A stretch of DNA of 38,536 bases. It comes from Candidatus Niyogiibacteriota bacterium. GTDB lineage: Bacteria > Patescibacteriota > Minisyncoccia > JACROR01. Under the pieces are notes generated by a model. It was not told where the DNA came from, ran no database searches, and was given only the letters and a program-made list of their open reading frames with translations. Positions 2,764 through 21,606 of the stretch are shown here, piece after piece; the stretch's first letter is position 1; the number at the start of each line of letters is the position of its first letter. Made by a program: the position numbers and the translations under genes. Location: positions 1 through 38,536 of the forward strand of contig JACROR010000029.1 in assembly GCA_016214345.1 (NCBI GenBank), in the 5' to 3' direction.

Positions 2764-2844
2764 TGGTGTCGGAGGGGGGATTTGCCCGCCCAGGGCGGGT
2801 CCGCCCTGGGCGGAAACCCTTAAGCCTTGCGGTCACTAGCTCCC
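2764..2844 (-). pseudogene. 3' half of a broken tRNA-Leu gene
   Basis: On the minus strand this reads GAGCTAGTGACCGCAAGG, matching the 3' anticodon stem and variable arm of the intact tRNA-Leu next to it, then a T-arm remnant, then the acceptor 3' strand CTCCGAC followed by ACCA. A 28-nt palindromic element (2786-2813) interrupts the T-loop. The fragment encodes the CCA end, unlike the intact gene. There is no matching 5' half with a complementary acceptor strand. It is best read as a tRNA remnant produced by duplication or insertion. Confidence 0.75.
2786..2813. repeat. GC palindrome inserted in the tRNA remnant T-loop
   Basis: CCGCCCAGGGCGG (2786-2798) and CCGCCCTGGGCGG (2801-2813) are exact reverse complements with a GT between. 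Comparison with the intact tRNA-Leu shows the element sits inside the T-loop of the remnant. A similar two-block layout (CAGCCCAGGGCTG plus a near-copy) occurs at 21381-21414 upstream of tRNA-Ser. Confidence 0.75.
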
Positions 2845-2847
2845 TTG

Positions 2848-2960
2848 TCCCGTTAGAAATGTGTCGGAGGGGGGATTTGAACCCCCATGACCTTGCGGTC
2901 ACTAGCTCCTGAAGCTAGCGCGTCTGCCGATTCCGCCACTCCGACATATTTCTAATGGGA
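2848..2960. repeat. Inverted repeat extending the tRNA-Leu acceptor stem
   Basis: The 15 nt on each side of the tRNA-Leu gene (2848-2862 and 2946-2960) are reverse complements at 13 of 15 positions. They are continuous with the 7-bp acceptor stem, giving a 22-position stem with two A-C mismatches in the transcribed strand. The outer edges coincide, on one side exactly and on the other within 3 nt, with the points where the two outer tRNA halves begin. Confidence 0.8.
2862..2945 (-). tRNA. tRNA-Leu (anticodon CAG)
   Basis: On the minus strand the acceptor strands GTCGGAG (2945-2939) and CTCCGAC (2869-2863) pair perfectly, with discriminator A at 2862. The D-arm GCGGAATCGGCAGACGC, the anticodon stem CTAGC/GCTAG with loop TTCAGGA, a long variable arm (TGACCGCAAGGTCA) and the T-arm GGGGG-TTCAAAT-CCCCC are all intact, as in class II leucine tRNAs. 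CCA is not encoded. The gene is unusual in lying inside a long inverted repeat and between two halves of other tRNA-Leu genes. Confidence 0.95.
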
Positions 2961-3015
2961 TGAACTAGCGCGCCTGCCTGCCGGTAGGCAGGTCTGCTAA
3001 TTTCACCACCTGTCC
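2961..3015 (-). pseudogene. 5' half of a broken tRNA-Leu gene
   Basis: Read on the minus strand from 3015, GGACAGG-TG-GTGAAATTAGCAGA followed by CGCGCTAG-TTCA matches a leucine tRNA from acceptor strand through D-arm to the middle of the anticodon loop. It breaks off exactly after TTCA, where the inverted-repeat block starts. A 20-nt palindrome (2973-2992) of the CCTGCC/GGCAGG family interrupts it between D-arm and anticodon stem. Its acceptor strand does not pair with that of the 3' remnant at 2764-2844, so the two halves do not form one foldable tRNA as they stand. Confidence 0.7.
2973..2992. repeat. CCTGCC/GGCAGG palindrome in the tRNA 5' remnant
   Basis: This 20-nt GC-rich palindrome belongs to the same family as copies at 16177-16224, in dnaG (24498-24513 and 24673-24696) and in rpoD (25138-25159). 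Comparison with intact tRNA-Leu shows that it is an insertion. Confidence 0.7.
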
Positions 3016-17353: not shown

Positions 17354-19015
<1,662 letters not shown>

Positions 19016-21380: not shown

Positions 21381-21414
21381 CCTCAGCCCAGGGCTGACCA
21401 GCCTCGGGCTGAGG
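21381..21414. repeat. Two-block GC palindrome upstream of tRNA-Ser
   Basis: CCTCAGCCC (21381-21389) pairs with GGGCTGAGG (21406-21414), with CAGCCCAGGGCTG as a palindrome inside. The layout parallels the element at 2786-2813 in the tRNA-Leu remnant. Confidence 0.6.
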
Positions 21415-21438: not shown

Positions 21439-21489
21439 CGACTTGTCCAAAATTTTGAATATTTATGATAAAATTTTGGTAACAAGTCG
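21439..21489. repeat. Long A/T-rich inverted repeat upstream of tRNA-Ser
   Basis: CGACTTGTCCAAAATTTT (21439-21456) pairs with 21470-21489 except for a 2-nt bulge, around a 13-nt loop. It ends 3 nt before the inverted repeat that encloses tRNA-Ser. The loop holds TATGAT, a possible -10 for the tRNA. Confidence 0.7.
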
Positions 21490-21492
21490 CAG

Positions 21493-21606
21493 TCCCGCAT
21501 CAAAGCGGTGGGGTGTCTGAGTGGTTTAAGGAGCTTGCTTGGAGAGCAAGTGTACGAGAAATCGTACCGCGAGTTCAAATCTCGCCCCCACCGCTTTGAT
21601 GCGGGA
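21493..21606. repeat. Inverted repeat extending the tRNA-Ser acceptor stem
   Basis: TCCCGCATCAAAGC (21493-21506) is perfectly complementary to 21593-21606. It continues the 7-bp acceptor stem to 21 uninterrupted base pairs and pairs the discriminator base G21593. This is the same arrangement as around tRNA-Leu at 2848-2960. Confidence 0.9.
21507..21593 (+). tRNA. tRNA-Ser (anticodon GGA)
   Basis: The acceptor stem GGTGGGG/CCCCACC, discriminator G, anticodon stem CTTGC/GCAAG with loop TTGGAGA, a long variable arm (TGTACGAGAAATCGTACC) and the T-arm GCGAG-TTCAAAT-CTCGC are all intact, as in class II serine tRNAs. CCA is not encoded. The flanks form a 14-bp perfect extension of the acceptor stem. 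Confidence 0.95.

Follow-up and report, generated by a model that had tools for sequence, protein, structure and literature searches.

tRNA genes of the genome studied here and of its relatives were found nested within interrupted tRNA genes of the same anticodon, and these nests probably arise by displacement, in that a foreign tRNA bounded by a hairpin enters its native counterpart and supplants it. The pattern suggests a route, of which no published description was found, by which foreign tRNA genes invade and replace native ones. The window, i.e. the whole stretch of 38,536 bp that was analysed, is part of a 691-kb genome (G000; 32 contigs, about 93% complete, 46 tRNAs), of which about 285 kb were read around all tRNAs. 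G000 is counted among the Paceibacteria (Patescibacteria) and represents an ultra-small bacterium; its closest named RpoD is that of Candidatus Giovannonibacteria, with at most 72% identity.

Within the window, a nest was observed at tRNA-Leu(CAG) (Table 1). The original prediction had ascribed to this gene the same hairpin design as to tRNA-Ser(GGA), and its arms are indeed nearly perfectly complementary, with mismatches beside the tRNA and one A.C mismatch. Outside the arms lie the two halves of a second tRNA-Leu. The outer 5′ half carries a 20-bp palindrome (about 2973-2992) and a further palindrome is inserted in the T-loop of the outer 3′ half (about 2784-2813). In G000 as well as in G001, which represent two genera of one family, the nest has the RNase J gene on one side and the SBP_bac_5 gene on the other, indicating that it is older than the split of the two genera. 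Contig joining, named in the original prediction as a possible source of artefact, fails as an explanation, since the Leu nest is kept at the same locus in two genera; together with the occurrence of nests in many assemblies, this rules out an assembly artefact. The outer copy is intact in G001, where the Leu transcript folds as two stacked cloverleaves, and broken in G000, with GGACAGG facing TCCGACA in the acceptor stem and with inserted palindromes.

Table 1. Positions of tRNA genes, hairpin arms and associated repeats. Coordinates without a locus name are those of the window.
Feature	Position	Strand	Evidence
tRNA-Leu(CAG), inner gene of nest	2862..2945	-	ARAGORN, RF00005
Left hairpin arm of Leu(CAG), sense ATCCCATTAGAAATAT	2946..2961	-	sequence
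Right hairpin arm of Leu(CAG), sense ATTTCTAACGGGACAAG	2844..2860	-	sequence
Outer tRNA-Leu 5′ half, stops in anticodon loop (TTCA/)	2961..3015	-	sequence; orthologous intact outer tRNA in G001, L143
Outer tRNA-Leu 3′ half, starts /GGAGCTAG	2766..2843	-	sequence
Left hairpin arm TCCCGCATCAAAGC of tRNA-Ser(GGA)	21493..21506	+	sequence, fold
tRNA-Ser(GGA), enclosed gene up to acceptor stem	21507..21592	+	ARAGORN, RF00005
Discriminator base and right hairpin arm GCTTTGATGCGGGA	21593..21606	+	sequence, fold
Accessory hairpin ACTTGTCC...GGTAACAAGTCGCAGTC, adjoining left Ser arm	21441..21494	+	signature search
Small palindrome CCTCAGCCC...GGGCTGAGG, left of Ser unit	21381..21414	.	sequence
Accessory hairpin NTTTGTC...GTNACAANNNGCARTCCCG, all sites	window 21441-21494; L020 2134-2173; L023 8623-8679; L016 18656-18695; L185 653-688; L186 9798-9843
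Right-hand-only cases in G000	L009 9223-9450; L010 8860-9042; L016 18790-18971; L017 4800-5007; L018 2867-3000

Nests with both outer halves and with the same anticodon in the inner and outer gene were present in G000 for Leu(CAG), Tyr(GTA), Gln(TTG), Arg(CCG) and Arg(TCT), the outer 5′ part lying to the left of the hairpin arms and the outer 3′ part to the right. Other tRNAs of this genome had a fragment of a like tRNA on one side only, either a 5′ fragment (Val-TAC, Met, Cys and Lys-TTT) or a 3′ fragment (Ile-TAT, Asp, Leu-GAG, Ser-TGA, Arg-TCG and Ser-GCT). The outer tRNAs were mainly split in the anticodon loop after position 35, as in TTCA/GGA (Leu), TTTA/CAC (Val), TTTTG/TAAA (Thr), CTTG/AAA (Ser-TGA) and TTCG/CAT (Ala), and occasionally in the T-loop (Arg, Gln-CTG) or D-loop (Met). 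Small palindromes were found in loops of outer tRNAs. Simple nests contained only about 115 bp, i.e. the tRNA and its arms, between the outer halves, and three-level nests occurred twice (Val-TAC of G001, L139; Ala-CGC of G161, L401). Among 23 outer tRNAs from seven genomes, which were reconstructed by hand from halves and split points delimited by eye and are not fully independent, 19 showed 7/7 acceptor pairs between their own halves, whereas stems mixed from outer and inner halves reached 7/7 pairs in 6 of 46 combinations (mean 4.8). The outer acceptor sequence was usually unlike the inner one. When the inner tRNA and arms were deleted and the flanks joined, a tRNA was again called across the junction in most nests; the intron mode of ARAGORN did not pick up the outer tRNAs.

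The flanks of tRNA-Ser(GGA), a gene without encoded CCA, are perfect reverse complements of 14 nt that prolong the 7-bp acceptor stem to a stem of 21 bp, with the discriminator G paired with C-1. Sequence and fold thus agree with the structure originally proposed, and the RNA of the unit folded with -66.9 kcal/mol (z = -9.9) and a single 21-bp outer helix. Comparison of the flanks with the tRNAs of eight genomes did not detect outer halves (p ~0.6 for the left and ~0.5 for the right flank). The unit was placed in the nested class because of its arms, whose foot GTCCCGCA ... TGCGGGAGAG is common to Ser(GGA) and tRNA-Gln(TTG) of the same genome, and because of the accessory hairpin at its left arm. 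The signature of this hairpin, NTTTGTC...GTNACAANNNGCA, was found at six sites in the DNA searched, all within 200 nt of tRNAs, and these include two clear nests of G010. One of the two nests is that of Ser(GGA); it occupies the orthologous site, beside an M48 peptidase gene, and its outer copy is intact. In most other genomes of the class Ser(GGA) is un-nested at this site. The small palindrome to the left of the unit possibly lies inside a fully eroded outer tRNA, whose significant similarity has gone.

The proposed scan of all tRNAs for complementarity between leader and trailer was carried out on G000, five other Paceibacteria genomes (five genera, one of them in the family of G000) and two genomes from other classes of the phylum, using tRNA neighbourhoods of metagenome assemblies that sample the surroundings of tRNAs partially. 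A helix score of at least 10 was reached by 6 of the 46 tRNAs of G000, compared with 0.29 expected when leaders and trailers were swapped between tRNAs, which bears out the original view that such flanks cannot be chance. They are not a general property either, as had also been stated: the tRNA-Asn of the window has no complementary flanks. Over the six Paceibacteria genomes the score was reached by 28 of 255 tRNAs versus 2 of 87 in the other classes (p = 0.014), and cognate flanking fragments accompanied 57/255 versus 4/87 tRNAs (Fisher p = 7e-5). Helix and cognate fragment co-occurred in Paceibacteria (odds ratio 11, p = 2e-8). One of the two other-class genomes, G203, was also nested, e.g. 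at a Val-CAC split in the D-loop, so nesting is not confined to the class Paceibacteria; no nests were found in the tRNA neighbourhoods surveyed of the second, G232.

A search for sites lacking both hairpin and inserted tRNA, likewise proposed beforehand, revealed the direction of the change. The Pro-CGG/Ala-CGC locus consists of plain genes in G023, G091 and G047 and carries a nest in G068, which shares its genus with G023 and G091. The outer 3′ part of this nest, CATTGTGCAGGCGTGAGTTCGA, shows no difference from the native Ala of G023 and G091 over 22 nt. The Ala beside Pro is also plain in G000 and nested in G001 of the same family. These un-nested orthologues and the native-like outer Ala indicate that the insertion went into the native gene. 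The earlier suggestion of a mobile hairpin carrying a tRNA was therefore close to the best reading, as un-nested sites do exist, but it had missed the nesting of tRNA in tRNA of the same anticodon.

The commonest arm was CCCCGTTAGAAAT...ATTTCTAACGGGG, with TTCA and CAAG (or the reverse complement) at its outer ends; other arm sequences were present and had a similar C-rich foot. Arm motifs recurred among unrelated tRNAs and genomes. The 14-mer TTCACCCCGTTAGA was found in 59 of 188 genomes of the class (about 160 sites among the matches listed) versus 7 of 109 other-class genomes, and a control with the reversed pattern was found once. Its 67 matches in viral contigs do not exceed rough chance for a 14-mer, and a phage origin of the arms was rejected. 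Most copies of the 14-mer lay away from tRNAs, as inverted pairs around the starts of protein genes, where inverted pairs of the arm motif CCCCGTTAGA were likewise present. The interiors of these pairs were variable, and local duplication was rejected here because interior and flanks were not similar. An inverted pair ATGAACCCCGTTAGAARY ... RYTTCTAACGGGGTGAA was observed around the starts of many unrelated protein genes in many Paceibacteria genomes (L220-L249); it encodes the peptides MNPVR... and ...SNGVN at a spacing of 22-140 nt, and its variable interior often provides a new in-frame start codon, so that the pair looks like an insertion rescuing the interrupted gene. An Rfam gathering search of 20 loci, nests included, returned no family other than ordinary tRNA, with the exception of one LOOT RNA (RF03000) at L222:2457-2580, which is unrelated and is separated by about 0.8 kb from a pair of nested inverted arms. 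The right-hand-only cases of G000 showed a downstream repeat of the tRNA 3′ end from the T-loop; between the copies lay an inverted T-arm half, in several cases also with the hairpin GGAGCAAGCAAACTGCTTTGCTTGCGT. At tRNA-Phe (L009, about 18262-18406), an element of about 120 bp with 20-bp inverted ends CCCTCACCCAGAATGGCATT had on each side a copy of the 11 nt with which tRNA-Phe begins (GCCGAGGTAGC), an arrangement resembling an insertion that duplicated its target.

According to the displacement model, a short cassette would consist solely of a complete tRNA gene and the two inverted arms, each about 12-17 nt long, that enclose it. It would arrive horizontally and interrupt the resident tRNA gene with the same anticodon by entering one of its loops, usually between bases 35 and 36 of the anticodon and sometimes in the T- or D-loop. 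The cell would then survive only through the cassette's working tRNA of the same specificity, and the inner gene would take over as the functional one. The outer halves would gain palindromes, be overwritten in part and wear away until one-sided fragments or no traces are left; such decay would account for hairpin-only cases, a hairpin-flanked tRNA without outer halves, such as Ser(GGA), being the end state. The inner precursor would presumably be matured by RNase P once the A/T-rich part of the stem opens. The original prediction had put first an unusual processing of such precursors, possibly by RNase III-like cutting. Leader-trailer pairing slows bacterial RNase P and does not exclude processing; the E. 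coli enzyme copes with inhibitory leader pairing, and two pairs already cut its rate (PMC9433436). Processing of the inner tRNA by RNase P may be regarded as plausible.

Isoacceptors in G000 are almost all single-copy (45 kinds in 46 genes), so that an insertion would survive only if it brought a working tRNA with the same specificity. No clear off-target cassettes were seen; selection alone may not explain this, and targeting by tRNA structure or homology is likely. The strict agreement between inner and outer specificity counts against displacement, being hard to obtain from random insertion and selection, and so do the Ser(GGA) flanks, in which no outer tRNA was detected. No recombinase or transposase tied to the arms was found. 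Y1 (HUH) transposases, with six matches in G000, were not supported as mobilisers: three nested genomes (G001, G010 and G012) yielded none, and the loci of the six G000 matches showed no arm motif CCCCGTTAGA.

The strongest competitor is local copying, in which the resident gene gives rise to the inner one through template switching during replication or self-primed extension of the folded tRNA strand. This would also account for cases in which one arm is a perfect inverted copy of the other, and the highly similar inner/outer pairs, which count against displacement, fit it: the Met nest of G012 (94%), the Ser nest of G010 (90%) and L401, which contains an exact 65-nt repeat of arm and 5′ half. 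In the Val nest of G001, the sequence of the innermost gene recurs exactly in the outermost 5′ half and in part of the leader of that half, and the right arm contains the tRNA 5′ end once more in inverted orientation. These near-identical copies indicate that local copying or later recombination also occurs. As a general explanation local copying is nevertheless unlikely. Mean identity between inner and outer genes was 79%, equal to that of the same isoacceptor between genera (73-79% between genomes), and outer acceptor stems are fully paired yet differ from the inner stems. One Ala-CGC type occupied the inner position in G138 and formed the outer remnant in two members of another family, G113 and G068, with 34/34 identical nucleotides between G138 inner and G068 outer gene; the recurrence of arm motifs in unrelated tRNAs and genomes likewise argues against copying in place.

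Anticodon loop and T-loop are favourite integrase targets. The split positions match them, and islands typically end in one-sided 5′ or 3′ fragments, as would be expected if a tyrosine-recombinase element with a restoring tRNA had hit these loops and had later been reduced to the tRNA and hairpin att arms. We regard such an origin as improbable, since clean cases (TTTTG/TAAA, TTTA/CACC) show no duplicated 7-bp overlap, no larger element was seen, the arm motif is no commoner in viral contigs than rough chance, and dozens of independent losses to one core of about 115 bp would be needed. Splicing, by which the outer tRNA would be functional, hairpin and inner tRNA a removed intron, and each transcript the source of two tRNAs, is very improbable. 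Many outer tRNAs do have intact stems, the Leu transcript of G001 folds as a double cloverleaf, and an RtcB ligase is encoded in G000, G010, G012, G019, G138 and G161; but RtcB was not found in the nested genomes G001 and G033 (99-100% complete), the outer Leu of G000 is broken, Rfam reports ordinary tRNA and no self-splicing intron in the nests, and one-sided relics are common. In G138 (C55:17179-19971), RtcB was matched as two separate pieces within one open frame of 988 aa, possibly because of an intein. That the extended stem is a mere processing or stability feature of ordinary tRNA genes can practically be dismissed, for although pairing of leader and trailer is found in E. coli and modulates RNase P there (PMC9433436), this leaves the same-anticodon outer halves accompanying the hairpins and the un-nested orthologous genes unexplained.

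Displacement thus remains the preferred reading. More tentatively, the cassette itself may be a gene-less, self-spreading 'cuckoo' that enters between positions 35 and 36 of tRNAs of its own specificity, rescues the cell and renews the Patescibacteria tRNA set; it would be selfish or horizontally shared and would act by repeated nesting. If displacement is correct, a large and poorly known bacterial group is having its tRNA set replaced gene by gene through insertion, and the nests record the order of events. The strict cognate-only rule of insertion would call for a mechanism, and a recombination activity acting on tRNA loops is predicted. Annotation and RNase P processing would have to handle double tRNAs.

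Full-text literature searches, covering open-licence papers only, returned nothing comparable to nested tRNAs, and a review from 2014 described bacterial tRNA genes as uniform, with group I/II introns as the sole significant exception (PMC4033280). The arms resemble MITEs, REP/BIME and Rickettsia-type palindromic elements in being short inverted-repeat units, but their interior is not conserved, and there is no consistent tRNA target duplication and no matching transposase. Like tRNA-targeting islands and tycheposons, the nests target tRNA genes, border on tRNA sequence and leave partial tRNA repeats. Those elements span 4-200 kb and carry cargo and a tyrosine recombinase (PMC10872708), whereas the whole insert of a nest is a tRNA with two arms and both outer halves persist. 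Simple nests contain no tyrosine recombinase or cargo between the tRNA-derived ends, and in clean cases the loop is split without duplication of an attachment core. Bacterial group I introns of tRNAs also interrupt anticodon loops, usually at 37/38, and are self-splicing, their catalytic core comprising about 100 nt (PMC4033280); the nests differ from group I/II introns in that the break is mostly at 35/36, no Rfam intron family is recognised and the insert is a tRNA. With the mobile tRNA introns and split or permuted tRNAs of archaea, the nests share the insertion of short hairpins into tRNA loops, and transposition between tRNAs has been reported for archaeal tRNA introns (PMC4033280, PMC10714607). 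The nests are unlike protein-spliced introns of the archaeal type in that an RtcB-type ligase was not found in G001 and G033, and unlike the archaeal systems as a whole in that they are bacterial, their insert is a complete tRNA of the same anticodon and the outer copy is often broken.
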